A DNA stretch of 36,427 nucleotides from Nitrospirales bacterium (GTDB lineage Bacteria > Nitrospirota > Nitrospiria > Nitrospirales > UBA8639): positions 1 through 36,427 of the forward strand of contig JAJDBS010000170.1 in assembly GCA_029261235.1 (NCBI GenBank), given 5' to 3'. The translations under genes were made by a program, and so were the position numbers. Of this stretch, positions 9,154 to 36,427 are shown one piece after another (the stretch's first letter is position 1; every line of letters begins with the position of its first letter). The notes under the pieces were generated by a model. It was not told the DNA's origin, made no database searches, and saw only the letters and a list, made by a program, of their open reading frames with translations.

Positions 9154-9297
9154 CATCATTTCCTTTACGGTTCGGGGGCCTCTTGACCCATGAATTCCTT
9201 GACACCCCTAAAAATCGCATATTATAGTCGAACTAGCTGATTTCAAAGGGTTTCCTAGACGATCTCATTAAAACATCATAAATAGGAACGGTGAACC

Positions 9298-9306: not shown

Positions 9307-9381
9307 TCTGTCACATATTCAGTGGAATAGAGACTCTATCTAAGGATATAAACCATTCTCTCCCAGACAAAGGGGACTCCC

Positions 9382-9912: not shown

Positions 9913-9946
9913 TCGAAACCTAGACTAGATTAGAGAAGGAAGTACC

Positions 9947-10195: not shown

Positions 10196-10218
10196 ACTTT
10201 CCTTTTCACTTATGGAAT

Positions 10219-10257
10219 AAAGGCCGTTAGTGCGTACGCACTAATGGCCTTTTCTTT
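10219..10257 (+). terminator. Strong Rho-independent terminator after the TusA-like gene
   Basis: AAAGGCCGTTAGTGC pairs with GCACTAATGGCCTTT (one G-U) around a GTAC loop, 15 base pairs in all, then TTCTTT. The 3' arm contains the ATG at 10244-10246, which opens the longest form of the next ORF, so that form would begin inside the hairpin. Confidence 0.85.
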
Positions 10258-10264
10258 GACCACA

Positions 10265-10921
10265 ATGAATAATTACACATTGGCCGACATTTCTGTAGAG
10301 ACCTGGGTCCAAGGTGGACCACTTACCCTGAAGAACCTTGTCGGCTCTGTTGTTTTAGTAGAAGTCTTTCAGGTGAATTGCCCTGGGTGTTTTATGTATG
10401 CCTTGCCGAAGGCGATTCAATTGCATGAAACTTATCACGAGAAAGGCCTGACAATCATTGGCCTCGCAACAGCCTTTGAGGAGTATGACAAAAACACCTT
10501 GGCAAATTTAGAACGATTGGTCGAATCTGGCGAAGTCATAGGAGAAACACTCAAGGCATTAACTCATCAAGGGATGCTGACTGATGGCAAACTTGAGTGG
10601 CGGCTGCCATTCCCAGTCGGCATGGACCGTGTCCAACCGAACGCTGAACCACTGACACAAGAGAGAATTCTTAGCTATACCCGCAACTGCCTACCAGGAT
10701 TTGACGGACTATCTGAGGAGAGGAAGCAAGAGGCACTCAATCAAATCAGAAATTACTTACAACAGAAAACCATGAAGGCCGAAACCTTTGAACGCTTCGC
10801 ACTTCAAGGCACCCCCTCCTCAATCCTCTTCGACCGAAAAGGCCATCTACAAAATGTGTCGTTTGGTCAAATTGAAAACAAAGAATCTTTAATTAAACAA
10901 TATTTAAACATAGCCAATTAA
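10265..10921 (+). CDS. Thioredoxin-fold redox protein (AhpC/TSA or TlpA-like)
   Basis: About 218 residues from the ATG at 10265 (MNNYTLADISVETWVQGGPL). The motif FQVNCPGCFMYALP has a CPGC redox site (Cys39, Cys42) after the usual thioredoxin strand; the end has a cis-Pro strand TPSSILFDRKG and a further glycine-rich segment. About 100 residues between the site and the cis-Pro form an insertion longer than in simple thioredoxins. No signal peptide is present, so it probably acts in the cytoplasm. It is chosen over the ATG at 10244 because that lies in the preceding terminator; neither has a strong ribosome site. A role in reducing DsrE/TusA persulfides is only inferred from position. Confidence 0.7.
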   Translation: MNNYTLADISVETWVQGGPLTLKNLVGSVVLVEVFQVNCPGCFMYALPKAIQLHETYHEKGLTIIGLATAFEEYDKNTLANLERLVESGEVIGETLKALTHQGMLTDGKLEWRLPFPVGMDRVQPNAEPLTQERILSYTRNCLPGFDGLSEERKQEALNQIRNYLQQKTMKAETFERFALQGTPSSILFDRKGHLQNVSFGQIENKESLIKQYLNIAN

Positions 10922-10952
10922 CGCTATCCTTGCCCACAACTTACTACCTAGC

Positions 10953-12188
10953 CTAAAACTTATCGCTAACCTTTCTACTCAGAAGATAAACAAATACGCC
11001 TAGTGTCACATACCCAAAGACGACCTCCACTATAACTAATAACTGTGCCCATCCTCCCTGGGGAGTAATATCTCCATATCCCAATGTTGTAAAGGTCACA
11101 ACGCTGTAGTAAAAGGCCGAGAAATAGTTTTCATTGAGCCCATCAAAATTGGAATGATTGAAATAAAATATTAATGCGAATAACAGGTTAATTATCAATC
11201 CTGTTACCGCAAGGGACACATAGGATGACCAAGCCTTTGTTGTGACTATGGCAAGTGAAAAGAATATTTTTTCTTTGATGGATTGGCTCCGAAGAGAAGC
11301 AAGGTTTGAAAATACGTATTGAAACCAGTCAATGTATCGACGCAACACCTTGCTGTCAGGAGCAGTCATGGCTGAAACATCGTTGGCTAGAAATTTAGTA
11401 TGCTTACCAGTATTACGAAGATGTCTACTGCCTTTCCCAGCTTTATCAAGAAAATAAGGCTCCCGCCCTGCGAAAAGCACCGCAAACAAAGCGCCTATTA
11501 AATAAAACGCAGAGACAGGTTCATATTTAAATGAAAATGCCACACTGGCATTATTCACACCTCGCAAAATATTTATAAAAGCGCCCCTTAAATCAGCATT
11601 GCGCATACCAGACTTGTCATCAAAGGCAAGATTAAAAACAAAAGAGTTGCGCATATCCGTTGAAACAAAATTGACATTGCGGAGCGTGAGTTGAGACAGA
11701 TGGGACTTATTGAAATTCCCATAGGCAAAATTCACATTACTTATTACAGAGTTGCTTAGAGATATTTTCTCCAAGTTTATTCCCCTCAAATCAGCCATAC
11801 CACCAACTTTCGACGTTGGGAACTGGTTAACATAGTCAACCAAGCTCACAGACTCATTGTCGTACTGAAAATCGAATTGAGAAAAATCAATTTCGGCCAA
11901 TGAAAAATAAATCCCCTTATTAACTCTGGCTTGATGTCCTATATTATGTTGCTTCTGTTTTTCATGTAAATACTGCCTGACTGCCTCATTGCAGGCTAAC
12001 CCCATAGGTGATTTCCAACGAACCTCTAGCCCAAACCCATCCATGTGTTGCTTCATTGGCTGATCGATTTTATTACTGACAGCATCTATATTTTTAAACC
12101 AAAAATCACAGATATTCCCTTCTTCATTGTAACCAAGGGATTCGAGGATCTTCTCAAAGTATTGGCTTGAGTACGTAGATAGAATCAT
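10953..12188 (-). CDS. Pentapeptide-repeat protein fused to a two-helix K+ channel
   Basis: The 411-residue protein has no recognised domain in its first 110 residues, then a pentapeptide-like right-handed helix (about 120-205, runs such as ADLRGINLEKISLSNSVI), a membrane segment at about 215-235, and a C-terminal potassium-channel module: an outer helix (about 320-345), the K+ filter TTLGYGD (367-373) and the inner helix to about 405. The filter is canonical for K+ selectivity. There is no obvious ligand domain, so the pentapeptide part may gate or anchor the channel. The ribosome site is weak (AGGG). Neighbouring genes are on the opposite strand, so it is monocistronic. Confidence 0.75.
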   Translation of the reverse strand: MILSTYSSQYFEKILESLGYNEEGNICDFWFKNIDAVSNKIDQPMKQHMDGFGLEVRWKSPMGLACNEAVRQYLHEKQKQHNIGHQARVNKGIYFSLAEIDFSQFDFQYDNESVSLVDYVNQFPTSKVGGMADLRGINLEKISLSNSVISNVNFAYGNFNKSHLSQLTLRNVNFVSTDMRNSFVFNLAFDDKSGMRNADLRGAFINILRGVNNASVAFSFKYEPVSAFYLIGALFAVLFAGREPYFLDKAGKGSRHLRNTGKHTKFLANDVSAMTAPDSKVLRRYIDWFQYVFSNLASLRSQSIKEKIFFSLAIVTTKAWSSYVSLAVTGLIINLLFALIFYFNHSNFDGLNENYFSAFYYSVVTFTTLGYGDITPQGGWAQLLVIVEVVFGYVTLGVFVYLLSRKVSDKF

Positions 12189-13006
12189 TTATTAAAAACC
12201 CTGTCGCCTAGAAAATTTGCCTTTACTTGTAACAAGAGCCCCTGCCTAAGAAAAATTAAATCGATCAGGATGAGATGGGAAGTTCTGATTTTTCGTTCAT
12301 ACAGGGCACAGCCATATTTCTTGCCGGCAGTCTGCTGTGAACTCAGCAATAAATAAATGCTCACAGCATTATACTAATTCCAAATTATTCCTAAAGCACC
12401 TTTCTATGTGGGAAACCTGACCTAGTATTTGACTAAAAAAAGAACGTCTATAAAGCAACACACCGCAGTAGATTTCCCAAAGTACCTCATAGCCCGATGC
12501 CTGCCGTCTGGCCCTACAGATGGACGCCCTCATATATTGGTTAGCCTTGTCTGAGCGCAGCGAGTTGGCTCACCCCTCCCCCTGCGTCCGTCTGTTCCGA
12601 TGACACCAGGCGGGGCATCAGTGGTTTTGGGTCCTTTTGCCGAAACAAAAGAACCTCGGCTGCCGGGCCGAAACCCAGCATTTATCATTAAAATAAATAA
12701 TTCCAGTTAGTACGTGGAAATCACAAAGTAACCATATCTTCCCCCCCAACCCCATCATAAGACACACCTAAGTACGACAAGTCTGCCTTTGCCTTCTAAT
12801 GAAACCTTACTCCGTTCCATTTCATTCATCTCACAATCCAAGAACTTTCCATCAATATATGCTAGCATTTAATCAGCACCTCGTTTCCTCAAGGCAATGT
12901 TGTTTCAGAACCAACTAGCTTTCATTCCCTCGGCTTAAAAACCGATACGATAATAAACAGCACAGAATCACACACAATACGTACATCACAAAGGAGTATC
13001 CCCACC
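12189..13006. other. Long intergenic region with folded repeats
   Basis: No gene is visible in 818 bases. The left part (12189-12490) is AT-rich and contains an inverted repeat TGCTGTGA (12333-12340)/TCACAGCA (12361-12368). From about 12495 to 12680 the sequence is GC-richer than its surroundings and contains the paired hairpins listed separately, as well as CCGTCTG/CAGATGG around 12513-12532, suggesting an inserted repetitive element. The rest (12690-12980) leads to the nfeD-like gene, with AAGGAG at 12991-12996 as its ribosome site. Confidence 0.5.
12630..12680. repeat. REP-like element: two hairpins with identical CCGAAA loops
   Basis: First hairpin: GGTCCTTTTG (12630-12639), loop CCGAAA, CAAAAGAACC (12646-12655), one mismatch. 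Second: TGCCGGG (12661-12667), loop CCGAAA, CCCAGCA (12674-12680), one mismatch. The first resembles dispersed intergenic sequences with the core TTTTGCCGAAACAAAA that occur in many bacterial genomes. The two stems are 5 bases apart, which suggests a structured repeat copied into the gap. Confidence 0.5.
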
Positions 13007-13468
13007 ATGCTCTGGTGGCATTGGGCAATTTTAGGGCTCAGTCTTATAGGAATTGAAGTCCTGACCTTAGGTGGGCTAGGAAATTTCTATTTCCTTTTCT
13101 TTGGGATGGCCGCATTGATGGTTACCGGACTGACCTGGTCGGGACTTGTTGAAGCCGCCTGGCTTCAATGGTTTTTGTTCGCCATTCTAGGCATCATTTC
13201 TCTCCTTGTGATGAAAAAGACATTGCAGGGCCAAAAAACCGTAGATGAAAAAGATGAGCCCGACGTTGATTCAATGTTGGGGGAAATTGCGAAAGTACTG
13301 GAACCACTTGAACCCCAGGCTATGGGAAAAGTGGAACTGCGTGGGTCTACTTGGAACGCCCGCAATGCCGGGGATAGCCTCCTTGCTACGAATTCCATCG
13401 CCACGATTGTGCGCGTGGATGGTCTGACACTTTGGATTCAAGCCGAATCCATCACACAGGAGAAATAA
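13007..13468 (+). CDS. NfeD-like membrane protein
   Basis: A 153-residue protein with three hydrophobic segments (about 3-22, 27-45, 52-68), then a charged linker and an OB-fold-like domain at about 90-150 (GKVELRGSTWNARN). This is the short NfeD form. The family pairs with SPFH proteins and takes part in membrane microdomain or protein quality control. The ATG lies 10 bases after AAGGAG. The next gene starts one base after the stop, so they form a two-gene operon. The function is inferred from the family; the true activity of NfeD proteins in most bacteria is not settled. Confidence 0.85.
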   Translation: MLWWHWAILGLSLIGIEVLTLGGLGNFYFLFFGMAALMVTGLTWSGLVEAAWLQWFLFAILGIISLLVMKKTLQGQKTVDEKDEPDVDSMLGEIAKVLEPLEPQAMGKVELRGSTWNARNAGDSLLATNSIATIVRVDGLTLWIQAESITQEK

Positions 13469-13469
13469 T

Positions 13470-14408
13470 ATGTCAGGTGAATTATTAGCCACACTCGTTT
13501 TTGCTGGTTTGGCCTTACTCATTTTGAAGAAAACGGCCGTCGTCGTCCCACAGCAAAGTGCGTATGTGGTCGAACGCTTGGGAAAATATTCATCCACGCT
13601 CAATGCCGGTCTCCATATCTTAGTCCCCTTCATCGATGTTATTCGGTACCGCCATTCTTTAAAAGAACTCGCCGTTGATGTGGCTGAGCAAATTTGTATC
13701 ACGCGAGACAATGTGCAAGTCGGTGTTGATGGCGTGCTCTACATCAAAGTCTTGGATGCTGAACGTGCGTCCTATGGCATCACTGATTTTCGATTTGCGA
13801 TTTCTCAACTCGCCCAAACCACGCTCAGAAGCGAAATTGGAAAAATTGATCTTGACCGAACCTTCGAAGAACGGGGAACGATTAATATTTCCGTGGTCAA
13901 CGAACTAGACAAAGCTTCAGCACCTTGGGGAGTCAAGGTGATGCGTTATGAAATTAAAAATATTAACCCCCCCGTGGATGTGGTCAACGCCATGGAAAAA
14001 CAGATGCGGGCGGAACGGGAAAAGAGAGCGGTCGTGTTGACGTCGGAAGGTCAGCGGGACGCGGCGATTAACGAAGCCGAGGGGGAGAAGCAACAGGTCA
14101 TTAAAGCCTCAGAAGCCAAACGGCAACAACAAATCAATGAGGCTGAGGGAGAAGCCCAAGCAATTTTAGCCATCGCCACTGCTACTTCAGAAGGCCTTCG
14201 GAAAGTCGCCGAAGCCATGCAAGATCCAGGCGGCTACGAAGCCGTCCAACTCCGTGTGGCCGAACAATATATTGGGGAATTTGGAGAATTGGCCAAAGCC
14301 AGCAATACCATGATTCTCCCGGCATCCGTCGCGGATGTGGGTTCCATGATTGCCTTGGCCATGAATGTAATTAATAAAAGCCCAGGAAAAACTCCAACGA
14401 TTTCGTAA
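13470..14408 (+). CDS. SPFH / stomatin-like protein (QmcA/paraslipin type)
   Basis: The protein (312 residues) begins with a membrane segment (about 5-22) and continues with an SPFH/band-7 domain: VPQQSAYVVERLGKYSSTLN (about 28-47), PFIDVIRYRHSLKE, then ISVVNELDKASAPWGVKV. A heptad-like coiled coil rich in EAEGEKQQ repeats (about 185-240) follows, and a hydrophobic tail. Members form ring-like membrane scaffolds and control proteases in microdomains. It is translated right after the NfeD-like gene, with GGAG overlapping its stop region, which supports a stomatin/NfeD complex. Confidence 0.88.
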   Translation: MSGELLATLVFAGLALLILKKTAVVVPQQSAYVVERLGKYSSTLNAGLHILVPFIDVIRYRHSLKELAVDVAEQICITRDNVQVGVDGVLYIKVLDAERASYGITDFRFAISQLAQTTLRSEIGKIDLDRTFEERGTINISVVNELDKASAPWGVKVMRYEIKNINPPVDVVNAMEKQMRAEREKRAVVLTSEGQRDAAINEAEGEKQQVIKASEAKRQQQINEAEGEAQAILAIATATSEGLRKVAEAMQDPGGYEAVQLRVAEQYIGEFGELAKASNTMILPASVADVGSMIALAMNVINKSPGKTPTIS

Positions 14409-14508
14409 TATGCAATAGGCCCTTTCCCTGTTGACTGCTCGGCAAACTTTCGCGATGATACTTTTTCAACGTGAATAATCTCTCAAGCAATACTCAAGGA
14501 TTTTTTTC

Positions 14509-15051
14509 ATGAAGAAATATTGGCTAGTGCCTTTACTATGTCTTCTCCTATTCCCAAGCCTGGCGTACGCCAGTCCCTATGCTCCTCTCGCCAATTTTGC
14601 GGCGGTACGACAGAATGCACAATGCCAACTGACAACTTTACACGAATCGCTTCTCAAAAATTGGACACCTCCAGCAGACTTTTTTTTGGTTCCAGCCTAT
14701 CCTCAAGCAAAGCTGGCCAGCGCATTCACGAGCGGCATGGCGAACATCAAAGGGAAAGACTATAAAACGTTTCCATCGGCGATGCTGCTCAGCACAGATT
14801 CCCCTGAAGCAATCATGACATTTTATAAGAATACGTTAGGACGAGGTTGGCACCAAACTGAGGATCATGGGATCACGTTTATCTATCGCATGCCTCGTCC
14901 GGTCAGTTCAGGTGAAGCACTCACGCAACAGCTCATGAGCCGACCAGGGTATACCCCCCACATTGCCATTGATACGGATCTGAAGCCTTGTGACCAACAT
15001 CTTGTTGCAGGCGCCACAACCCGGATCACTGTCGTGGCGGCTCCACGATAG
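14509..15051 (+). CDS. Hypothetical exported protein
   Basis: The 180-residue protein has a clear signal peptide (KKYWLVPLLCLLLFPSLAYA, cleavage near residue 22). The mature part is about 158 residues with a YPQAKLASAF stretch and two Cys residues (about 39 and 163) that could form a disulfide. The domain is not recognised. A segment with 'DSPEAIMTFYKNTLGRGWHQ' resembles the phrase seen in small periplasmic proteins that bind or present a substrate, but this is weak. It lies about 100 bases after the stomatin-like gene and may be co-transcribed or separate. Confidence 0.65.
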   Translation: MKKYWLVPLLCLLLFPSLAYASPYAPLANFAAVRQNAQCQLTTLHESLLKNWTPPADFFLVPAYPQAKLASAFTSGMANIKGKDYKTFPSAMLLSTDSPEAIMTFYKNTLGRGWHQTEDHGITFIYRMPRPVSSGEALTQQLMSRPGYTPHIAIDTDLKPCDQHLVAGATTRITVVAAPR

Positions 15052-15092
15052 CGCTTCCCTTTCAAACAAACCTGCATGCTCGACTTCTTTCT

Positions 15093-15848
15093 TTAAGCCA
15101 ATCGTATTTCTCGAAAGGCTAACGGCATCCCATAAATGGGGTCGGTCCGATGTCGCACCACTTCGACCTGCTGCCCTCCTCCTTCAAAGAAGATACGCTC
15201 TCCGACTTTTGGATTTTTTCCTTGAACCATCAATTGATGCGCAACCTCATACAGCATAGGTTCTATCGTTCGTTCTGATAGCCCGATGGGCTGAAAAGTT
15301 TCAAGCTCATCCAATCCAAATTTTGTGAGCCCTCTGGTGTGAAACCACGTTCGCATCTGTTGCACCTGTTCATGTTGTTCCACCTGAACATGATCGTCTA
15401 CCTGAAACACCATCAAATCCCGATCTTTCCAATCCGAAGGATTGTGATAGCCTCCCGTTGCAACATCATACGTCGTCCCTTCCAAGAGCAAGGTCAGCCC
15501 TCTGGCGATTCGCGCCATATGCAGAACCTCATCATCTCGCTCTGCATGCATCTTAGGTGGAGCCAACAGTTGCAGCAAATGACGATGTTCCCATTGCAAA
15601 CGACCGTGCCACTGCTCGGCCACCTCTGCTGATGGTGCTAATTGCACCTGAGCTTTCCAGTTTGTATGCACGGCCTCAAAATGTTGATGGCCGCTCGTCG
15701 ACAAGAAACGAATCTGCAAGGGGCCGCCATAATTTTGATCAAACCACGCCGCAAGATACCCAGGAGGCGGCACTTCCCCATGTGTCCAGCCAATGAGAAA
15801 CGCGGGCAATGCCTGAGGATTCGATTTCTTCTTTTTGATTTTTTTCAT
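15093..15848 (-). CDS. Hypothetical soluble protein
   Basis: I do not recognise the family. From the ATG at 15848 the protein is 251 residues and starts MKKIKKKKSNPQALPAF; the ATG at 15920 would add 24 residues without a better site. It is soluble, rich in His, Gln and aromatic residues, with a lysine-rich start that may bind nucleic acid or membrane. A WTHGEVPPPGYLAAWFDQN motif (about 21-39) and a HWxR-like central part are its distinctive points. It is 100 bases downstream of the zinc-ribbon/pgl pair on the same strand, so it may belong to that transcription unit. Confidence 0.55.
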   Translation of the reverse strand: MKKIKKKKSNPQALPAFLIGWTHGEVPPPGYLAAWFDQNYGGPLQIRFLSTSGHQHFEAVHTNWKAQVQLAPSAEVAEQWHGRLQWEHRHLLQLLAPPKMHAERDDEVLHMARIARGLTLLLEGTTYDVATGGYHNPSDWKDRDLMVFQVDDHVQVEQHEQVQQMRTWFHTRGLTKFGLDELETFQPIGLSERTIEPMLYEVAHQLMVQGKNPKVGERIFFEGGGQQVEVVRHRTDPIYGMPLAFREIRLA

Positions 15849-15948
15849 GCTGTGGCTATCCGGATAATTGTATGGGGCAAAGATGGATGATGGGCAGAAA
15901 GTCACTCGAGGAATTCGCACAGGGGGATATACACGAATACATCAAACG

Positions 15949-16344
15949 TTATCGCTTGGCCTCTTCCGGTGGCCAATCCAATTCTTCTTGACGACCACAA
16001 TACCAACACGTGATTCGATATCGAGCTCGACGGCGTGGATTGGGCAAGGAGTGAAATTGTATTGGCGCTTGGTCATACGGGCAGACAGGTTCCAGGTGCA
16101 ACAAATGCTCTTCCGTGATCTCCATTAACGAGCCCTCATCCCACGGTGGCTCCAACTGAAGACAACCTGAGATCGTCTGTTCCCAATGGCAAGAACCACA
16201 CTGCAATCGAAAACTTTTCACGCGATCGGTTTGCTGGGAAATATCCGTGACTTCCACAGCAGAGGAACAATCTCGACCTTCACAGATCACAGATTGTTTG
16301 TGGAGGGCTTGAACAAATGCCATAGGAGCTTTCGACTCGGTCAT
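15949..16344 (-). CDS. Small zinc-ribbon protein
   Basis: A 131-residue soluble protein with several Cys pairs: CEGRDC near the start, CGSCH in the middle, then CPYD and CWYCG near the end. This suggests two zinc-ribbon units. No further domain is recognised. The ATG at 16344 overlaps the stop of pgl by one base (TGATG), so translation is coupled. A GTG at 16347 is an alternative start. Its place behind pgl suggests a linked expression, but no functional link to sugar metabolism is known. Confidence 0.65.
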   Translation of the reverse strand: MTESKAPMAFVQALHKQSVICEGRDCSSAVEVTDISQQTDRVKSFRLQCGSCHWEQTISGCLQLEPPWDEGSLMEITEEHLLHLEPVCPYDQAPIQFHSLPNPRRRARYRITCWYCGRQEELDWPPEEAKR

Positions 16345-17129
16345 CACAACGTCTTCTCGCTATCATTGATCCATTGCGTATACGAACCTTGTTTCAATCG
16401 ACTCGCGGTCTCCCGATCCAACAGCCAGACCACATCTCCTTGAACAGGATTCACAATTTGAGCGGGATAGCGATTGGGCTGAAATGGACCTTCTAACACT
16501 GCTTCTATCGCTTCTTCCTTGTCCGACCCTCCCACGACAAACAACACACGATGGGCTGCATTGATGACTGGCGGAGTGAGCGTAATACGATGCGTCTGAA
16601 ATTTTTCCACCCACGGTGCCGCAACCCATTGCTCTTTTTCAGAAAGAACTGACGTCTCCGGGAATAAAGAAGCCGTATGACCATCAGGCCCCATACCCAG
16701 TAGAATTAAGTCAAAGCAAGGGAAACGCCCTGCCTTCTCCACAGAGAACGCACGTTGTAACGCAGATTCATATCGCGCAGCCGCTTCTTGTGCTGGTCGC
16801 TCTCCTTCCATCCGAAATACGTGATGAGGCAAAATAGGTACGCAATCTAATAAATTCTCTTTCGCCATGCGAAAGTTACTGTCTGCATGATCCGGGGGAA
16901 CCTCACGTTCATCGCCCCAGAAAACCCGAATAGACGACCAATCAACTTGTGATCGATAAGGCTCAGCGGCCAATCGTGAAAACAATCGCTGAGGAGTCGA
17001 ACCGCCCGAAAGGGCAATTGATTGAATTTTCCCACTATCAGGCTTGGAAGCTAACGTCTGAACGACGAATTGAGTGGCGGCTTCAAAGAGGTTTTCTGGC
17101 GTCTGGCAGACGAGTATGCGACGTGGCAC
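16344..17129 (-). CDS. pgl: 6-Phosphogluconolactonase
   Basis: The enzyme hydrolyses 6-phosphogluconolactone in the oxidative pentose phosphate pathway. The GTG at 17129 is chosen as start because AAGGAAG lies six bases upstream; a TTG at 17150 lacks a site. The 261-residue product has the family's conserved blocks: LSGGSTPQRLF (phosphate binding), RVFWGDEREVPPDHADSNF and LILLGMGPDGHTASLFP with the catalytic His. Length fits the DevB/SOL type. The zinc-ribbon gene follows at one-base overlap. The transaldolase gene of the same pathway is about 650 bases away on the other strand. Confidence 0.92.
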   Translation of the reverse strand: MPRRILVCQTPENLFEAATQFVVQTLASKPDSGKIQSIALSGGSTPQRLFSRLAAEPYRSQVDWSSIRVFWGDEREVPPDHADSNFRMAKENLLDCVPILPHHVFRMEGERPAQEAAARYESALQRAFSVEKAGRFPCFDLILLGMGPDGHTASLFPETSVLSEKEQWVAAPWVEKFQTHRITLTPPVINAAHRVLFVVGGSDKEEAIEAVLEGPFQPNRYPAQIVNPVQGDVVWLLDRETASRLKQGSYTQWINDSEKTL

Positions 17130-17249
17130 AATATCTTCCTTGTTAGACAAATATGAACCTGATTGAACAGCATCGTTTCATCGCAGAGCGATAAAACCTC
17201 TGAATAGTCTCATCGTCAACACCTTGCGTATGACGCACATGTTTATGGA

Positions 17250-17564
17250 CTAACAATCCGCATATTCATAGTCGTCAAGCTTTTGGTCTTTATCAAATTC
17301 CAATGTAATTTTGCATTGATTCGGGGTGAAATTGAAAAACAGGAAATGCGTTCCCCCTCCAGCAATGCGGGAATAGATCCAAGTTTCTCCTCCACCAAAT
17401 CGTGAAGACTTGGCACTGGGTTTTCCCATATTTTCTTCAAACCAGGCCTGGTCTTTCCCTTCAAATTTCGCAGGTTCAAGGGACGCATCCAAATATGGAT
17501 TTCCCCCACCACAACCGGCAAAGAACAATCCTAGTACACCAATGATGACATAGAGCCGAATCAC
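17250..17564 (-). CDS. Small BamE/SmpA-like lipoprotein
   Basis: The GTG at 17564 is favoured as start, since AAGGAGG lies five bases before it; a TTG at 17582 would add six residues. The 104-residue product has a lipoprotein signal ending FAGC followed by GGG. The mature part contains WFEENMGKPSAKSS and ETWIYSR, then a Cys pair (NQCK and the final DC) and LEFDKDQKLDDYEY. The pattern resembles the SmpA/OmlA fold of outer-membrane assembly lipoproteins such as BamE, in which a helix-helix-sheet unit contains a conserved W-x-Y. Identity is not sure. It stands alone. Confidence 0.65.
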   Translation of the reverse strand: MIRLYVIIGVLGLFFAGCGGGNPYLDASLEPAKFEGKDQAWFEENMGKPSAKSSRFGGGETWIYSRIAGGGTHFLFFNFTPNQCKITLEFDKDQKLDDYEYADC

Positions 17565-17684
17565 ATCAGCCTCCTTTTTCAAGAACTACTCGCCATGACC
17601 CACTTCGGGGTCTTTTAAAAATTCTAGCCCTCGTGTCTCGATCAGTCAAACACGAAGAGCAATTCTCGAGAACATTATCCCCAT

Positions 17685-17713
17685 TTGTCCATAAGGACGC
17701 CGTCGATTACAAT
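17685..17713 (+). promoter_or_regulatory. Promoter of the transaldolase gene
   Basis: TTGTCC (17685-17690) and TACAAT (17708-17713) are separated by 17 bases and lie 50 bases before the GTG start of the transaldolase gene. The -10 box has one mismatch; the -35 box has two. Confidence 0.4.
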
Positions 17714-17763
17714 ACGTCTCGATTGAGCTGCGCCTCTATATTTCTACACAAAAGGAGATCACC

Positions 17764-18417
17764 GTGAAACTGTACTTAGATACTGGCAATGTTGACGAAA
17801 TTCGTAAAGCGGCAAGCTATGGAATGATCGATGGAATCACGACCAACCCTTCCCTCGTCTCGAAAGAAGGCCGGGAGTTCAAAGATCTCCTCTTGGAAAT
17901 CTGCCAAATCATTGATGGCCCGATTAGTGCCGAGGTCGTGAGTGTTGAAGCTGAGGCTATGGTGAAAGAAGGTCGCGAGCTCGCCAAGATTCATAAAAAT
18001 ATCGTCGTGAAAGTTCCACTCATCCCTGAAGGCCTCAAAGCCACTAAGCAAATGGCCAGTGACGGAATCCGCGTCAATGTGACCCTCTGCTTCTCCGCCA
18101 CGCAAGCGCTCATGGCCGCTAAAGCTGGAGCCTGGTGCGTTTCACCGTTTATCGGCCGCTTGGATGACATTAGCTCAGACGGTATGGATCTCATCGAACA
18201 AATCTTGACCATCTATGAAAATTATGATTTCCCCACACAAGTGCTTGTGGCCAGCGTTCGCCATATTCAGCATGTGACCGATGCCGCACTACTCGGTGGG
18301 CATATCTGCACGATGCCCTATACTGTGTTTCAACAACTCGTGAAACATCCCCTCACCGACAGCGGACTCAGCAAGTTCCTGGCTGATTGGGAAGCAAGAA
18401 AGGATTCCAAGAAATAG
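17764..18417 (+). CDS. tal: Transaldolase (small, fructose-6-phosphate aldolase-like type)
   Basis: The 217-residue length and sequence fit the short transaldolase/FSA family: [16 protein letters not shown] at the start, TTNPSL (26-31), and the Schiff-base lysine at 83 in VVKVPL. The enzyme exchanges a dihydroxyacetone unit between sedoheptulose 7-phosphate and glyceraldehyde 3-phosphate in the non-oxidative pentose phosphate pathway. AAGGAG precedes the GTG start. It is monocistronic, with a promoter-like pair just upstream. The substitution of Gln or Tyr that separates true transaldolases from FSA cannot be judged with certainty by eye. Confidence 0.92.
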
Positions 18418-29197: not shown

Positions 29198-30109
29198 ATG
29201 TCAGCCTCTAAGCCTTCTGATTCCACTGGCCCGATCCTCCCGCTTCGACTACAAGCCTTTACTAATCTGATCCGGTTGCCCAACCAAACAGGCACATTGC
29301 TTTTGCTTTTTCCGACCTTATGGTCCCTCGCCCTTGCTTCTCAGGGGTGGCCATCTACTAAGTTAATCCTAATTTTTGTCGTGGGATCTTTTATGATGCG
29401 TAGTGCCGGCGTCATCATGAACGATCTTGCCGATCGTTCATTTGATGGTCAGGTGGAGCGCACACGTCACCGCCCACTCGTATCCGGGCAGTTACGTCCC
29501 AAGCATGCCCTGGTATTGTTACTTACGTTACTCCTTGGTGCCGGCGCGCTTTTATCATTGCTAAATCCTCTCACTTGGCTACTTAGCCCAGTCGCTGTGT
29601 TACTTGCTGGAATATATCCCTTCTGTAAACGCTTTCTTCATATACCACAACTTATGCTCGGTGTTGCCTTTGGTTGGGGAGGAGTCATGGCTTGGGCCGC
29701 TGTTCGCGATCAATTCGAGATAACCACCTGGCTGCTCTTTGCCGCTACCGTGTGTTGGGCCATTGTATACGATACTATTTACGCCATTCAGGACAGGAAT
29801 GATGATATGAGAATCGGTGTCAAGTCATCGGCTATCTTGTTTGGTTCCTATACCTGGCTTTGCGTAGGATTAACAGCAACGTTCATGCTGTTTTTTTTGT
29901 CGTTAGCTGGCGAGATCAATCAGTTGGGGGCAGGTTATTTTGCTGGGCTGGCATTGGTTAGCATTCTCATGGGTTATCAGGTCGTTCTCCTTCGCTCAGA
30001 TGTATCAGCTGAGTTAGCCTTCAAACTGTTCAGACAACATTGCTGGATTGGACTGATTGTCCTGATAGGTATTTTGTTAGGCACCTTTAATCGCACATAC
30101 GTTTCATAG
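29198..30109 (+). CDS. ubiA: 4-Hydroxybenzoate polyprenyltransferase (UbiA family)
   Basis: The 303-residue membrane protein has the two Asp-rich prenyl-diphosphate motifs: NDLADRSFDGQVERT (about 70-84) and YDTIYAIQDRNDDMRIG (about 191-207). HRPLVSG, IYPFCKRFLHIPQ and GVAFGWG blocks closely match proteobacterial UbiA enzymes. About eight membrane helices are expected. The enzyme attaches the isoprenoid tail to 4-hydroxybenzoate in ubiquinone synthesis. MqnP, the menaquinone counterpart in the futalosine pathway, is the main alternative, but its motifs are different. The ATG at 29198 has no strong ribosome site. Confidence 0.85.
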   Translation: MSASKPSDSTGPILPLRLQAFTNLIRLPNQTGTLLLLFPTLWSLALASQGWPSTKLILIFVVGSFMMRSAGVIMNDLADRSFDGQVERTRHRPLVSGQLRPKHALVLLLTLLLGAGALLSLLNPLTWLLSPVAVLLAGIYPFCKRFLHIPQLMLGVAFGWGGVMAWAAVRDQFEITTWLLFAATVCWAIVYDTIYAIQDRNDDMRIGVKSSAILFGSYTWLCVGLTATFMLFFLSLAGEINQLGAGYFAGLALVSILMGYQVVLLRSDVSAELAFKLFRQHCWIGLIVLIGILLGTFNRTYVS

Positions 30110-30204: not shown

Positions 30205-31239
30205 TTACTCTGGCTCGGCGATAGAAGCCGCTGGTATTGGTGCTCGTAAAGTTCCTAAATAATACGTTAAAGCCCTGGCATCTGCATCAGAAGCACCTAA
30301 GTTAGGCATACGCGTACGTTTTTTCATAGCCTGAGGATTCTTTATCCATCTATACACCCAAGTTGGATTCAACCGAAATCCTGCACGGTCTAATGTCGGT
30401 CCGACTAACCCACCAACATCATTGATACTATGGCAGCCATTGCAGCCATAAGTACCAGTGTATAGTTTTTTCCCAAGCTCAACCTGCTGAGCTAATTCAG
30501 CTTCGGAAATAGTGAGATCAGGACGTTTAATCCGTGTCTTTTTGGGACGCTTGGAAAAGTACTCAAACGCATCTTTTGATGTGTTGTATTTTTCGTTAGC
30601 AGTGAGAAATGCTGCCTCTTCTGGAATAGTGACTTCTTTGTACTCATAATCCTCAAGTTGCTCATCGGTCAACGTTTCTTCATAAGCTTCTTGAGCCGCT
30701 TCGACTTTTTCAACAGCTGCCTCATAAGCAGCTTCGGCCGCTTCTTTTTCTGGCTTTGCTGCTTGATACGCTTCTTCTAATTCTTTTTTGCGGGCAACTA
30801 GATCGAAAGTCAACGACATACCATGAAGAGTTCGTACATGGGCCACAATGCCCCAGATTTCTTCCTCGGAAAGAGTATATTTAAACGATGGCATTGTGGG
30901 GACGGCAAAATAGTTCTCGTCATCCAATACTTTTGGATCTTCCCAATCACGCATGTCCCGATAGACCGTATCGAATATTTCTTTGTCACTGAACGTTGAC
31001 ATCTCTGCGTTTGATGCTAAATTTTTTGGCCGTGGGTCTGGCATACGGTCCCAATTAAAACCTTCACCTTGCTGCCCAGAATCTCCATGGCAGTGGCTAC
31101 AATAATGGTGATAGAGCTTTTTGCCTTTTGCCGTTCTTTCATCACCCGCACAGCCGTACATAAGCAATCCAGCCATAAGCCCAAGCGTCAAAAACTTTAG
31201 CAAGGCTCCTGTGATATTTCCTTTGGCCACCGGTTTCAT
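30205..31239 (-). CDS. Dihaem cytochrome c lipoprotein with a long helical insert
   Basis: A 344-residue lipoprotein with signal ending LLMYGC (Cys30). The first cytochrome c domain (about 35-142) has CSHCH (47-51) and a likely Met ligand near 115; a charged helical insert of about 90 residues (about 148-235) rich in Glu, Ala and Lys follows; the second domain (about 245-335) has CNGCH (266-270) and Met311 in RMPNLG. It should carry electrons on the outer face of the inner membrane or on the outer membrane. It is the last gene of the oxidase cluster, and its ATG overlaps the previous stop (ATGA). AAAGGG serves as the ribosome site. Confidence 0.88.
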   Translation of the reverse strand: MKPVAKGNITGALLKFLTLGLMAGLLMYGCAGDERTAKGKKLYHHYCSHCHGDSGQQGEGFNWDRMPDPRPKNLASNAEMSTFSDKEIFDTVYRDMRDWEDPKVLDDENYFAVPTMPSFKYTLSEEEIWGIVAHVRTLHGMSLTFDLVARKKELEEAYQAAKPEKEAAEAAYEAAVEKVEAAQEAYEETLTDEQLEDYEYKEVTIPEEAAFLTANEKYNTSKDAFEYFSKRPKKTRIKRPDLTISEAELAQQVELGKKLYTGTYGCNGCHSINDVGGLVGPTLDRAGFRLNPTWVYRWIKNPQAMKKRTRMPNLGASDADARALTYYLGTLRAPIPAASIAEPE

Positions 31240-32075
31240 GCTGATTGGCCCTTTCTCAATTTCCTTACCACCACCAATTCAAACGCGGCAGCCAGTGCTA
31301 ATCCAAAAATCACCCATCCATAAATGGAGTTGTCAGCGCTAGGTTCGGCCCGAATAGACCACCAAGATGACACCGCTTTTTGACTGCCCTTTTCCTTCGG
31401 AACTCCGCTAACCAGGGCCCCATCCCAAAAAGCAAAAGCGACACTTCGCCAGTCACCTGGTTCAATTTGGACGTCTTCCTCATCCTCGGTCTTAAGTGCC
31501 CGTGTAAAAACGACTTTCCAAGAACCATCAGCCCAAGCGCCTGTTGCACTGACATCTTGCTTTTCTTGAGTGCTCAATGTCTTAAAGCCCTTAGCACTCA
31601 TATCCAGTGCCTTACCGTTTTCTTTTTTCCAAAACCAAATATTGACTGGACCACCTTCCACCTGAAGCATTGGCTGCCCATGCGCAAAGTGAGCCTTTTT
31701 GTCACCCACCATAAATTCTATTGCGGCAGCATCTTTAACGTCATCGGTGGGATCTTCATATTCAAGCAAAATTGCAAGATTTTGCCCATCATGCAAACCT
31801 TTGACTTTCACTGTTTTAACGGTTACTTCCTGAATGCGCTCAGGCCAATGTACTTGTGGAGCTAAGTTAAATTCTGATTCTGGAACCGAGGCCCATTGGG
31901 GAGAGTTTGGATCATCAGCAGGAAGAATGCCCTCTACTTGATACATTCTGATTGACACACTTGCACCAACTTCGTCCGCAGGTGGAGGATCACTGGCAAA
32001 CCCCACAGTTGAACCGAGTATTCCAGATATTCCTACAAGGATAATGGTTGAAAGGAATCTCAGTTTGTTCAGCAT
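31236..32075 (-). CDS. Membrane-anchored haem b-binding protein, ethylbenzene dehydrogenase gamma / NxrC type
   Basis: The 279-residue protein has a signal peptide (about 1-27, cleaved near GFASD), a domain of the ethylbenzene dehydrogenase gamma type (about 40-240), and a C-terminal membrane helix (about 250-268) followed by KLRKGQ. The strands with QVHWPERIQEVTVKTVKV, LAILLEYEDPTDD, and the final WWSIRAEP match the pattern of gamma subunits in the DMSO-reductase family, which carry one haem b. In Nitrospira, proteins of this type are proposed as the gamma subunit of nitrite oxidoreductase, but no alpha or beta subunit is present here. The gene has GGAG in the leader and is between two cytochrome c genes. 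Confidence 0.8.
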   Translation of the reverse strand: MLNKLRFLSTIILVGISGILGSTVGFASDPPPADEVGASVSIRMYQVEGILPADDPNSPQWASVPESEFNLAPQVHWPERIQEVTVKTVKVKGLHDGQNLAILLEYEDPTDDVKDAAAIEFMVGDKKAHFAHGQPMLQVEGGPVNIWFWKKENGKALDMSAKGFKTLSTQEKQDVSATGAWADGSWKVVFTRALKTEDEEDVQIEPGDWRSVAFAFWDGALVSGVPKEKGSQKAVSSWWSIRAEPSADNSIYGWVIFGLALAAAFELVVVRKLRKGQSA

Positions 32076-32122
32076 GTCATATTCTCCACAAAGACACCGT
32101 TCTCAAGTAATGAATGAGGCCC

Positions 32123-32848
32123 TTAATCGTCTTCTTCCCAAGTCCGAGGAGATTGATGGGCACCATCATACTCCCCCATAATAATTTTCCAGATAAACTC
32201 ATCTGGTAATTCTACTTCCCAGCGAGGCATAGCTGACTTCCACGGCATAGCTTCTACTGGTAAACCTACCCCGCCTTTTTTAATCCTCCAGAAAAGATAT
32301 GATTCTTGTAGTTGGGCGATAGTGCCAGGATCAGCAAAGTTCGCAGGTGGAGGATTGAAACCTTTAGCTGCTGGGCCTTTCCCATCATAGTTCGCACCAT
32401 GACACGGGGAGCAGTATGCCGCATACAGTCCTTTCCCCATATTAATATTGGCCTCGTTATTTTGATACGGATTGGCCAACCCTACAAACTCACCAGGTGG
32501 AGCAGGGTGGATCGTCCGATTTTCTCCAGGAGGTAGATCGCTAGGAGCTAAACTCGTATAGGTTTGCCACCCGACTAATAAGGGAAATAATACCAAGACC
32601 GCGAGCCGTGCCATTTTTCCGGTCCCTGACTGGCCCTCACCCGATAAGAATCGAAAAACTGGGCCCATAAGAGACTCCAGCGAGGACGCACTCATGGTTC
32701 CATAAAGCATGATCCCGCTAAAGGCTAAGGTCATATAGAGATATATTAAACTTGCTGGAAGAGGAGCCGTAACTAATGGAAGAAGATACTTTATAAATAC
32801 AAACACTCCTACAAGTAGGATTGCCCCGCTTGCTATTGGACCTTTCAT
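32123..32848 (-). CDS. Membrane-anchored monohaem cytochrome c
   Basis: The 241-residue protein has three hydrophobic segments (about 7-25, 34-52, 82-98), then a periplasmic cytochrome c domain (about 128-240) with CSPCH (146-150) and a Met in the MPWKSAMPRWEVE stretch as likely sixth ligand. The usual helix MGKGLYAAYC leads into the haem site. It probably takes electrons from periplasmic donors and passes them to the oxidase core. AGGAGG precedes its ATG, and the gene is part of the minus-strand cluster. Confidence 0.88.
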   Translation of the reverse strand: MKGPIASGAILLVGVFVFIKYLLPLVTAPLPASLIYLYMTLAFSGIMLYGTMSASSLESLMGPVFRFLSGEGQSGTGKMARLAVLVLFPLLVGWQTYTSLAPSDLPPGENRTIHPAPPGEFVGLANPYQNNEANINMGKGLYAAYCSPCHGANYDGKGPAAKGFNPPPANFADPGTIAQLQESYLFWRIKKGGVGLPVEAMPWKSAMPRWEVELPDEFIWKIIMGEYDGAHQSPRTWEEDD

Positions 32849-32878
32849 ATCGTTCCTCCTGTATTCCGATACCCCATC

Positions 32879-33526
32879 TTACGGAGCCACATCACTTTCT
32901 GGTAACACAGAACTTGCAGAAACAGAATCGGCATTAAAAGCAACTTCTACCGTTTCAGACTTCTCGTCCTGCGATTCCATCACATCTTCAACCTTTATGC
33001 TAATAGGCTCTCCACTCATCTTTTGAAGAAAGGCTATCACGGAAAAAATTTCTGGCTTCGTAAGTCCAATGGGATCTTTATCTATATGGGGCATACGCGC
33101 AGGATATTCCTCCGGTTTGCTAGCATGACGAAAATCTAGATAAATATACGCTTGCGGCTGCGTGAGACTTTCAAAAAGAAATTCTGGAGCCAACTTTGCG
33201 CCAATTCCGTTCAAATCTGGGCATCGAGCCGAGTGACTCGGTCCGATCGAGTGACACAATGCACATTGGCCTTTGCTGAAAAATATTTTTTGCCCGATGG
33301 CCGCTAAATCATCCGGACTTTTCACGCTCGCGATATCAAATTTTTCAATAGCTGGAGGTAAGGACGCCACTTGCGGCACCCCCAAAGCTATCAAACTAAA
33401 CGCTCCCAATACCATGGCCACAAAACCGACGACCCTTAGAAACATCCCCTTGATAAACAAGAGAATGAGAAGCCCCGTTCCGATAACGCACAGGCCAATT
33501 ATTTGGAGTAACGCAACTTCACTCAT
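32879..33526 (-). CDS. Membrane-anchored monohaem cytochrome c
   Basis: The 215-residue protein has two N-terminal membrane helices (about 5-25 and 29-50), a linker, and a cytochrome c domain with CALCH (88-92); Met144 in ARMPH is a likely sixth ligand. A C-terminal acidic tail (about 180-215) is predicted disordered. Its ATG follows the oxidase stop by six bases with GAGG as ribosome site, so it is likely the immediate electron entry subunit of the bd-like oxidase. Confidence 0.88.
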   Translation of the reverse strand: MSEVALLQIIGLCVIGTGLLILLFIKGMFLRVVGFVAMVLGAFSLIALGVPQVASLPPAIEKFDIASVKSPDDLAAIGQKIFFSKGQCALCHSIGPSHSARCPDLNGIGAKLAPEFLFESLTQPQAYIYLDFRHASKPEEYPARMPHIDKDPIGLTKPEIFSVIAFLQKMSGEPISIKVEDVMESQDEKSETVEVAFNADSVSASSVLPESDVAP

Positions 33527-33532
33527 GATGCC

Positions 33533-35413
33533 TCACTTGTGGTTTTCGAGGATCCCTGATTCAAATTTTTCACCAGAACTTGGGGCCCCGCCAGCCATGG
33601 CCGGAGGACCACCAGGAATGTCAGACATTTCAGCCTTAGCCTGTTGAGCTTTGGCTTTATCTCCCAACGTCGCAACCCAAAAGATAAACGACACTAACAA
33701 ACAATACACAAAAGTATTCAACGACATAAACGCAGCCGCATAGCCAAGCGCAGGGGAAAATGCGTATTCCGACGTATCTCTCATCACTCCATAAATATGC
33801 CAATGGACTCGTGATGAAGATCTTGCATAACCCATGAGAGACATAAGCAGAATCACCATCACGGCATTCAGCACCAAACAATACCCGGCTCGTATGGGCA
33901 TTTGCCCCCATACCATTTCCGTTGTCGTCTTAGCACTTTTCAACAACAAGGCGGTCAAAGGCGTAAAGGTCACCATGATAAAACCTACAATAAGGACTTG
34001 GGCCACAGAAAAATAATTAATCCGAATAATGGCCGGAACAAAATAACCCCATACGCCTAAAACAATCACAGCAATAGCCGCAATAGCCAACAATCCATTC
34101 ATGATGGCTTTTGCCGCTTTTGCCCACCCAGCAGTTTCTTGTTTCCCCGCACGCCAATACATAATAAAACTCATAAATGTTACGAGGATCATAATATTAG
34201 CCACAGTCATTTTGGCTGACATGACGCCGAACACTCCAAGCAATGGATGATGCGTTCCTCCCATTTTTTGGGCTTCCGCCAAGCTCGCCACCAATGTATG
34301 AGGAGTCATCCACACGCCTAGGCATAATAATAAGACAATAAGCATGGCCATTATCGGCTTCTTGTACGAATTTTCAGACCCAGGTATCCTATACGTAATA
34401 CCCATCCAGAAATAATAGTTGGCTCCTAAAAAGAGCACACCTATCAGCATAGCCTGGAGAATAAACAACCAGGCAAGGAATCCACCCATAAGGGTGATCC
34501 CCATCTGCTGGTTGTACTGATAGACTTCCCGCATCAACCAATAACCCGCGAATGGGAGAGGTAACATACCGAATACGCCGATAAAATTCCCGACATATCC
34601 CATCCAATCATAATGCTCTCGCTCTTCACGGGATACGGCCAAAAGATATCTGATGCCGGCATAAGCGCCGACAATAAACCCACCCAATACCACATTGGCG
34701 ATGAGTCGATGAATATTGACTGGCCACCACGTCGGGTTCTGCATCGCCATCCAAGCTCTCGTCCATGCATCACCGTCACCCACGACCACAGGACTCGCCT
34801 GGAATGTGGCCCATGAGTTGGGAACGATCATAATACCGATGGCAAACAAATTCAGGAGAAACCCTAGAAAGATATGAAAGGCTTTTTTATTCCCCTGCAT
34901 GTAGTCCCATCCATACCAATACATATACAAGGTCGCAGTTTCAGCTAAAAACAAAAGACAATAGACAAGGAAGGACGGGAAAAACATTTCGGTCAGGTAT
35001 GCCATTAACTTTGGATACAAACCAATAAGCAAGAAGAGAAGTATGCCACCAAACAATGCTGTGGTGGCATAGGCCGAAGTCAACAACTTCGTAAACTCTT
35101 TGGCTAATTTGTCATATCGAGCTTCCTTGGTCCTCCAGCCGACAATCTCACACACCCACCCAAAGATCGGCACACCTAAAACAAATCCAGCCAATAAGAG
35201 ATGTTGCTGGGCGACAATCCAGACTAAGTTTCGGCTACCAATTCCAGGAACATCACGATACTCGACGGACATCGCCTTCGTTTCCGCACCAGCCGCCATA
35301 GCAATGACCGGAAGCAGCAGAACGGAGAAGAAACTTACCCACTTGAAGATGGTTGGCATCTTTTCCAGAAAATTTCTCACGTTTGATTGCCGTATATGGT
35401 TGGCCGATTTCAT
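33533..35413 (-). CDS. Cytochrome bd-like oxidase subunit I (Nitrospira-type, extended)
   Basis: The 626-residue protein is a CydA-like integral membrane protein with about 14 helices, much longer than the usual 450-530. It keeps His71 in AQQHLLLAGF (high-spin haem ligand), Glu158 in AETATLYMYWYGWDYM, which matches the CydA segment with a conserved Glu and YxxGWDR, and His235 in NIHRLIANVVLGGF (low-spin haem ligand). The quinol-binding GRQPW motif is not visible, which fits an enzyme fed by cytochrome c and not quinol. The last part (about 440-580) adds helices absent in E. coli CydA. GGGGG lies before the ATG. No CydB is seen. The C-terminal tail is Gly/Pro/Ala-rich. Confidence 0.82.
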   Translation of the reverse strand: MKSANHIRQSNVRNFLEKMPTIFKWVSFFSVLLLPVIAMAAGAETKAMSVEYRDVPGIGSRNLVWIVAQQHLLLAGFVLGVPIFGWVCEIVGWRTKEARYDKLAKEFTKLLTSAYATTALFGGILLFLLIGLYPKLMAYLTEMFFPSFLVYCLLFLAETATLYMYWYGWDYMQGNKKAFHIFLGFLLNLFAIGIMIVPNSWATFQASPVVVGDGDAWTRAWMAMQNPTWWPVNIHRLIANVVLGGFIVGAYAGIRYLLAVSREEREHYDWMGYVGNFIGVFGMLPLPFAGYWLMREVYQYNQQMGITLMGGFLAWLFILQAMLIGVLFLGANYYFWMGITYRIPGSENSYKKPIMAMLIVLLLCLGVWMTPHTLVASLAEAQKMGGTHHPLLGVFGVMSAKMTVANIMILVTFMSFIMYWRAGKQETAGWAKAAKAIMNGLLAIAAIAVIVLGVWGYFVPAIIRINYFSVAQVLIVGFIMVTFTPLTALLLKSAKTTTEMVWGQMPIRAGYCLVLNAVMVILLMSLMGYARSSSRVHWHIYGVMRDTSEYAFSPALGYAAAFMSLNTFVYCLLVSFIFWVATLGDKAKAQQAKAEMSDIPGGPPAMAGGAPSSGEKFESGILENHK

Positions 35414-35523
35414 AACTTGGCCCCCTTCACTCGTATATTTTTAAGCACGGGAAAGATTTCGCATACTTATAACGCATGCCGTATTCGTCTTGCTAGCAAA
35501 AAGAGAAATAAGTTTCTAGCACT

Positions 35524-36399
35524 CTATTTCTTTTTATCCGATTGCGATTCTTTAGCTACTGGCTCTTTAGCCTTTGTATCATCTGAACCATTAGATTCAG
35601 CACTTTTTTCTTCTTTGAGTTTTTTCACTACCAACTCGGCTTTTGTTACGACCTTTTCTGCTTCTTTTAAGACTTTTTTGGGTTCAACCTTAACCTCTTT
35701 TTGGCCACTGGAGATAAACTCATAGTCTTCATGCGGATGAGGCGTCGTTGAAGGCAACAAAGCCCAGAAGACAAAGACCAGAACCACGCCAGCGCCAGTA
35801 AAAGCCGTTAATAACAACGGCTGATCGGCTGGAACACGCAGACCATCCCAAAAATTCGCTCTATCCTCTTCAGTTCCATCGAGAGGTTTCGCATTTTTGA
35901 CAAATGGTTGAGTCAGCCAACCTAGTCCATACAACCAGCCAACGATACAGAGGATAAGAACCACCGATGCCACACTCCCCCACATCACCAGCTCAATGCT
36001 AATTTGCTCTGCTACTGGAATTTCATAGATAGATTCTTCAATTGAGTGAACAATACTAGATGTCACTGATTTTGCGATTCCGGTTGCCCCTGAAACAATA
36101 AATTTCATCAATGGCAGGGCAATTGCTGAAAATACCGCCCACCGAATCCAAAGGTTTTTCCCAAAACCAGGTTGAGGATCGACTTTCAGTCGATCGATGA
36201 ATACTGTTCTTGCGCAAAGGCCTAAAGCCCAAATATCAATTGGGATGGAGACAAACAACAGCAAGAAAAAACCTTCACCACCCCACGGATGCATGTGACC
36301 TGCCAACAATAGTAAGCAGAACACCATTTTTATGGGAAAGCCAGTCCAGAAGGTTGGCCAAAAAACAAGGAGACCTAATTTAAGATTCGACATGGGCAT
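35524..36399 (-). CDS. Hypothetical membrane protein with lysine-rich cytoplasmic tail
   Basis: The 291-residue protein starts MPMSNLKLGLLVFWPTFW and has about five hydrophobic segments (about 18-35, 42-62, 88-107, 133-157, 195-217). After about 230 it becomes a Lys/Glu-rich helical tail ending KESQSDKKK, likely a charged coiled coil. No domain is recognised. It is the first gene of the oxidase cluster in transcription order, separated by a 110-base gap from the bd-like gene. It may be an assembly or anchoring subunit. The upstream end may lie near the window edge; a start at the second ATG (36393) is also possible. Confidence 0.7.
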   Translation of the reverse strand: MPMSNLKLGLLVFWPTFWTGFPIKMVFCLLLLAGHMHPWGGEGFFLLLFVSIPIDIWALGLCARTVFIDRLKVDPQPGFGKNLWIRWAVFSAIALPLMKFIVSGATGIAKSVTSSIVHSIEESIYEIPVAEQISIELVMWGSVASVVLILCIVGWLYGLGWLTQPFVKNAKPLDGTEEDRANFWDGLRVPADQPLLLTAFTGAGVVLVFVFWALLPSTTPHPHEDYEFISSGQKEVKVEPKKVLKEAEKVVTKAELVVKKLKEEKSAESNGSDDTKAKEPVAKESQSDKKK

Positions 36400-36427
36400 G
36401 GGAGTTCTAATGCAAGAATTCTCTATT

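Follow-up and report, generated by a model that had tools for sequence, protein, structure and literature searches.

The six genes f to k at the end of the window (the whole of contig JAJDBS010000170.1, 36,427 nt, from genome assembly GCA_029261235.1 of a Nitrospirales bacterium) are the 3′ part of an eleven-gene Nitrospirales operon, a-b-c-d-e-f-g-h-i-j-k, that is split by the contig end. With a probability of about 0.7, this operon encodes the main terminal oxidase, an enzyme of the OR-N type, together with a bc-type complex. The six genes are of a known kind, and their products have already been proposed in print as a Nitrospira oxidase supercomplex (PMC6606698). New here are the fusions of gene h with the core gene g in relatives, the presence of the core in 13 of 40 genomes without a match to PF00115 or CydB, the joint absence of g, i and j from operons of one genus, and the resemblance of gene f to a short one-helix protein.

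Organization and conservation of the operon

Gene letters follow the operon order, and the window holds f to k (Table 1). In the initial annotation, the six same-strand genes were described as encoding a membrane protein, a CydA-like core, two membrane-anchored monohaem cytochromes c, a haem b protein of the ethylbenzene dehydrogenase gamma type and a dihaem cytochrome c lipoprotein, and these types were borne out by the open reading frames (ORFs), Pfam domains and CXXCH motifs. The intergenic gaps from f to k, calculated from the ORF coordinates, are 110, 6, 30, 47 and −4 bases, which agrees exactly with the range of −4 to 47 given for the last five genes. The term "fused", which had been applied to the cluster, does not hold within the window, where the six ORFs are separate.

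The contig (C79) is one of 264 in a genome that is 83% complete and ends 28 bases upstream of gene f. The operon continues on a second contig of this genome, C74, with e, d, c, b and a on its minus strand, followed by three more genes common to relatives. According to domain searches, genes a to e encode a cytochrome c lipoprotein, the CydA-like protein bd-like_1, a membrane cytochrome c, a Rieske protein and a cytochrome b; for the Rieske gene d an additional PRC-barrel match was found under the Pfam cut-off. All eleven genes are present without interruption on one contig of the close relative G007. The window set had been regarded as a complete supercomplex whose composition was not established, a view that was only partly right: the window holds six of the eleven operon genes, and a publication of 2019 had described the region, together with its bc-complex genes and another CydA-like protein, and proposed a complex III/IV supercomplex (PMC6606698).

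For the synteny scan of named genomes the best 80 of 166 loci were used, all of which were retrieved through the core gene g. The titles of the loci are mostly Nitrospira, Nitrospirales or Nitrospirota/Nitrospirae, with two Nitrospinota and one Nitrosospira. Expressed as loci in which a gene was found per loci with room for that gene, the counts were 59/60 for a, 59/60 for b, 61/62 for c, 61/62 for d, 65/66 for e, 68/70 for f, 73/73 for g, 73/74 for h, 70/70 for i, 67/67 for j and 64/64 for k. The misses were confined to L056 (a to f) and L071 (f and h as whole ORFs), and a second g match was present in L067. This recurrence of the eleven-gene order in nearly every named locus with room, including those of Nitrospira moscoviensis (L074) and Candidatus Nitrospira defluvii (L076), is more than chance. 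The co-occurrence of the neighbours with the oxidase gene, which the initial annotation had named as a point to be checked, was thus found, with few exceptions, in the loci with room, which had been selected by the core. In a separate survey of genome content covering 40 genomes, the own genome included, core g was present, whole or partial and with at least 74% identity, in 33. The seven genomes without a close core were G003 and G019, in which contig ends lie inside the operon, G012, which is 73% complete, and four genomes of the genus g8.

Fold and ligand residues of the CydA-like core

PF01654 (CydA; 1.2e-17) was the sole Pfam family found in the core, and all ten PDB matches of its predicted model at E ≤ 0.001 in Foldseek were cytochrome bd oxidase chains, although the model is weak. 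For the assignment of ligands we took H19, H186, M393, E99, E107 and E445 of Escherichia coli CydA to be haem-associated and K252 and E257 to be the quinol-site residues. The alignment comprised 59 sequences, among them E. coli CydA and five canonical CydA proteins of the Nitrospirales, and is uncertain past the Q-loop. H71, E158 and H235 of the window core hold the positions of H19, E107 and H186, which are kept in 32/33, 31/33 and 33/33 g-like sequences, respectively, and in 20/20 b-like sequences each. E99, E445, K252 and E257 are kept in none of the 33 g-like or 20 b-like sequences. In the window core, K252 and E257 correspond to M304 and M309, with Met in the latter column in 32/33 g-like and 20/20 b-like sequences, which confirms the reported absence of a quinol motif. 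The reported absence of cydB was reproduced as well, as PF02322 had no match in the own genome at its completeness of 83%. The column of M393 contains Met in 2/33 g-like sequences and a gap in the b-like sequences, in the uncertain part of the alignment. M402 of g, close to the expected M393 helix, is a tentative candidate for the sixth ligand of haem b558; paralogues have Asn or Leu in its place, and a number of class-level homologues have Leu. The expectation of oxidase-type haem ligands was accordingly borne out for the H19, E107 and H186 positions and not for those of M393, E99 and E445.

By its sequence, the window core is not a canonical quinol oxidase of the cytochrome bd type, since no CydB was found and M393, E99 and E445 are not kept. 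It corresponds to the OR-N type CydAA′ as labelled in the literature, judged by its CydA fold, the lack of quinol residues and the bd-like_1 partner encoded alongside. No match to PF00115 (COX1, haem-copper oxidase) was found in the own genome, again at 83% completeness.

Five histidines, H372, H388, H389, H537 and H539, are invariant in 81/81 rows of window-type sequences. Among the aligned CydA-like proteins of the own genome, only the window core has the full set: bd-like_1 has Glu388, Leu389 and Tyr537, bd-like_3 has Gln388 and Phe537, and a protein on contig C98 has Gln388 and Tyr537. A contig end truncates the own bd-like_4, in place of which the G009 protein was used; it has Gln388 and Gly537. 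Six bd-like_3-type proteins were aligned, all with Gln388, whereas position 537 is Phe in three and His in three; the latter are those of G026, G032 and G035 (L232-L234). Proteins of the window type, the bd-like_3/4 type and the b type are placed in distinct groups by FastTree. PMC8026999 describes one Nitrospira variant in which every haem and copper residue known from haem-copper oxidases is present, and a second conserved variant with Gln in place of one copper-binding His and Phe in place of the high-spin haem His. The Gln388/Phe537-type replacements in the paralogues fit this description and identify the window core as the likely full-set "copper-site" variant, a match made by the kind of residue replaced.

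Cytochromes, haem b protein and gene f

Cytochrome c domains were identified with Pfam in h (215 aa), i (241 aa) and k (344 aa; aa, amino acids), and a hydropathy scan revealed two hydrophobic stretches in h, two in i and one N-terminal stretch in k. The latter is followed by C30, which is kept in 65/65 rows. In six of the eleven class-level homologues that were fetched (L190, L193-L197), h is the C-terminal domain of the core protein itself, with scores of 171-190 bits each for the h profile. In all four of these fusion proteins that were searched with Pfam, both domains are listed, the CydA match of L190 lying just below the cut-off. The fusion of h and core in one reading frame is the best sequence evidence in this analysis for h as the direct electron donor, and h most likely docks on the core in this role. 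In the class-level loci L187-L189, h contains two haem motifs. A fusion of j and k in relatives, in parallel to that of g and h, was considered and rejected, because the cytochrome domains that precede EbdC (L226, L196, L194, L191, L232) scored no higher than 18.4 bits against the k profile.

Protein j matches EB_dh (PF09459, 1.7e-22), has no CXXCH motif and has one hydrophobic stretch at each end in the hydropathy scan. The axial ligands of haem b in EB_dh proteins are presumably Met and Lys. M122 and K233 of j are invariant in 68/68 rows and are thus the candidate ligands of an EB_dh haem b domain. In the comparison with NxrC (7b04_C, 9.1e-14), K233 aligns to an NxrC Lys, and the Met residues are offset by two positions. 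The score of j with TIGR03477 was 107.1 bits, below the curated cut-off of 169.85, and domain searches found no alpha or beta gene among the operon genes a to k.

Gene f had no family match in Pfam or NCBIfam, and its predicted model (mean predicted local distance difference test score, pLDDT, 78) had no PDB match at E ≤ 0.001. The gene was found in 97/98 Nitrospirales genomes sampled, the single miss (G229) being due to a contig break. Beyond the order Nitrospirales, only its C-terminal part was detected, encoded by a short ORF next to cytochrome b, in 4/15 genomes of the same class; this class-level f is a one-helix protein, and all four lack the TTPHPHE end. Within the order, a short f occurs in the genus g8. 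The window f lacks an insertion of about 33 residues of the N. moscoviensis and N. defluvii proteins. Taken together, f looks like a small subunit, adjacent to the bc complex, to which membrane helices were added. H223 in its HPH end is present in 73/73 rows, and a metal site there is possible. The reading of f as a cytochrome b C-terminal half encoded by a split gene was rejected, because e (370 aa in L114) matches both cytochrome b halves and the short f is a one-helix protein.

Table 1. Genes of the operon located in the window and overlap of the contig end.
Feature	Position	Strand	Description
Gene f	35524..36399	-	291 aa membrane protein, 4-5 helices, conserved C-terminal RxPxDQ...TTPHPHE; adjoins cytochrome b gene beyond contig end
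Gene g	33533..35413	-	626 aa CydA-like core; by locus and ligand pattern, orthologue of bd-like_2 (N. moscoviensis) and of the NIDE0901-type OR-N2 subunit (N. defluvii)
Gene h	32879..33526	-	215 aa membrane-anchored monohaem cytochrome c; CXXCH at 88; M145, M170 conserved
Gene i	32123..32848	-	241 aa membrane-anchored monohaem cytochrome c; CXXCH at 146; M207 conserved
Gene j	31236..32075	-	279 aa ethylbenzene-dehydrogenase-gamma-type haem b protein, alt_NxrC_1 type; signal-like N-terminus, C-terminal helix
Gene k	30205..31239	-	344 aa dihaem cytochrome c, probable lipoprotein; CXXCH at 47, 266; C30 conserved
Contig overlap	36302..36427		126 bases identical to left end of contig C74, same genome; operon continues there (e, d, c, b, a)

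A UbiA prenyltransferase gene (PF01040, 3e-60) at 29198-30109 is convergent with the operon end. Elsewhere in the window, a protein of 898 aa that combines Sel1 repeats with a peptidase domain of the caspase type (PF00656, 5.1e-24) is encoded at 1293-3989, and two ion-channel proteins at 6794-7663 (PF00520, 1.1e-50) and 10953-12188 (PF07885 with pentapeptide repeats).

Relation to known systems and proposed function

PMC6606698 reports high transcription of an N. moscoviensis region that comprises CIII_1, bd-like_1, bd-like_2 (complex IV), two cytochromes c and alt_nxrC_1, and speculates about a III/IV supercomplex with possible contact to NXR. This region has in common with the present operon the Rieske and cytochrome b genes, two CydA-like genes and, between bd-like_2 and alt_nxrC_1, a pair of cytochromes c. 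The N. moscoviensis locus L074 has the eleven-gene order of the window plus C74, a match that rests on order, domains and chromosomal place, and its core is 81% identical to the window core over core residues 47-611. NIDE0901-like proteins are classified as OR-N2, pairing with OR-N1 as CydAA′ (PMC12342949, PMC10839748); the CydA fold, the missing quinol site, the two CydA-like partners per operon and the ascription to cytochrome c are the same as here, the window core being assigned to the NIDE0901 type by locus and ligand pattern. PMC10839748 calls experimental confirmation lacking, and PMC8115632, PMC10579370 and PMC3578206 agree with these accounts. No purification of a Nitrospira bd-like oxidase was recognised in the literature searched, most subscription papers being outside its coverage.

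Outside the order, the class-level loci L187-L189 contain a to k in the same order and resemble TO_1 of Candidatus Manganitrophaceae (PMC9040806), a comparison made by published description. On the same terms, L190 and L194-L197, in which the core has MrpD-like neighbours, resemble TO_2 of that family (PMC9040806). The class-level loci differ from the window in their short one-helix f, in the two-motif h of L187-L189 and in the fusion of h to the core in the MrpD-linked loci. L190 (genome G292, 3848-18000) encodes a to f, a fused g-h, two MrpD-like ion-pump proteins and then i, j and k; its MrpD-like pair is 46-56% identical to the pair of L196, in which one member matches PF00361. This hybrid operon links the TO_1-like and TO_2-like layouts in one locus. 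The bd-like_3/alt_NxrC_2 cluster (L226, L232), of which relatives have been reported in Nitrospina and anammox bacteria, shows the same order of CydA-like protein, cytochrome c, i-type cytochrome c and EbdC-type protein, but differs in Gln388 and in the two cytochrome c domains fused in front of the EbdC-type protein.

Since j is an NxrC homologue with a C-terminal helix, and an interaction with NXR has been speculated about (PMC6606698), j could mainly be a docking anchor for soluble NXR at the membrane, the operon then encoding an NXR-oxidase respirasome that works without a free carrier. We consider this rather unlikely: a j homologue is present in the same gene order in the TO_1-like clusters L187-L189 (genomes not typed or searched for NXR), Candidatus Manganitrophaceae are said to lack the Nitrospira nitrification genes (PMC9040806), and in N. 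moscoviensis the transcription of alt_nxrC_1 was about 25-fold lower than that of the main nxrC (PMC6606698).

The distribution of oxidases was surveyed in the same 40 genomes with PF00115 and PF02322, other oxidase types not being searched for. Eighteen genomes had a match to neither family, and 13 of these, the own genome included, had the core, whole or partial. Among the 13 were G007 (100% complete), G022 (99%) and G020 (97%), and the core is possibly the sole oxidase in such genomes. This distribution bears on an alternative in which the complex is not an oxidase but an NXR-fed cytochrome c:quinone device for reverse electron transport, similar to alternative complex III, with O2 being reduced elsewhere. 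Such a role would fit the bc-complex genes in the same operon and the loss of several canonical CydA positions, and it has been suggested for bd-like oxidases (PMC3578206) and for the bd-like_3 cluster (PMC6606698). We regard it as unlikely, because in the 13 genomes, three of them 97-100% complete, a CydA-like protein is the likely enzyme if O2 is respired, and because the window core alone among the aligned CydA-like proteins of its genome has the H372/H388/H389/H537/H539 set.

In three of the four genomes of genus g8 (G026, G029 and G032; loci L216, L217 and L225) the operon reads a-b-c-d-e-short f-h-k. Genes g, i and j are jointly missing from these operons and hence act as a single unit in this genus, the search for i and j orthologues being confined to the operon. 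The fourth genome, G035, yielded only a fragment of b. The initial proposal of a cytochrome c-fed bd-like oxidase with an NxrC-like haem b subunit fits the synteny, the loss of quinol residues and the cytochrome-core fusions of relatives; in this genus, however, eight of the eleven genes occur without the core. Absence of NXR as an explanation of the loss of g, i and j in g8 proves little: no strong match to TIGR03479 (NXR alpha) was listed there, and strong matches are likewise missing in G025, G028, G039 and the own genome. The three g8 operons, in genomes with no PF00115 or PF02322 match, would also suit a second alternative, in which bd-like_1 (b), together with the bc genes, acts as the principal oxidase, g-h-i-j being an electron-entry add-on gained or lost as a block. 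This appears quite improbable, given that G026, G032 and G035 have a His537 bd-like_3-type protein that could serve instead (none is listed for G029), that the own bd-like_1 lacks His at positions 388, 389 and 537, and that pairing of OR-N1 and OR-N2 has been proposed in print (PMC12342949, PMC10839748).

Several observations weigh against an oxidase centred on the core. The window core lacks the M393, E99 and E445 of canonical CydA at the aligned positions, H537 is Tyr in the class-level homologues L188 and L189, which speaks against an essential role of this residue, and the core model is weak and free of haem and copper (mean pLDDT 60.7, predicted template modelling score 0.62). The g8 operons without g indicate that g is not needed for the rest, and the gene order is broken in L056 (CP070743.1), where g-h-i-j-k stand without adjacent a to e, a remnant of f lies beside g, and b is about 1.1 Mb distant; here k is reduced to 169 aa and a single haem motif, and the operon was either broken by rearrangement or misassembled. 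At a completeness of 83%, the absence of other oxidases from the own genome is weak evidence, and of NXR alpha this genome contains only an 80-residue piece at a contig end of C72 (TIGR03479, 2.9e-9), so that we infer nitrite oxidation by the source organism from its relatives.

If the operon does encode the main terminal oxidase, NXR and a periplasmic carrier would deliver electrons from nitrite to its haem b and c subunits k, j and i, from which they would pass through h to the core g, which would reduce O2 using protons from inside. A link between this chain and quinone, working in either direction, would be provided by the bc genes and bd-like_1. The assembly of the complex, this electron route, O2 reduction and any proton pumping are predictions from the gene set. 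As a tentative extension, the CydA-like core, h, i and an EbdC-type j may form a portable module that recurs as OR-N2, as bd-like_3 and in Mrp-linked TO_2-like clusters, and the OR-N2 core may have evolved a haem-copper-like O2 site (H372/H388/H389 with H537/H539) with h as its docked donor, to which the h-core fusions point. If true, this would represent convergent evolution of a cytochrome c oxidase within the bd superfamily. Nitrospira drive nitrite oxidation in many environments, and their O2-reducing enzyme has apparently not yet been purified. The fusions and the co-absence name a likely docking cytochrome (h) and companion genes (i and j), and may thereby provide a defined subunit set for reconstitution.

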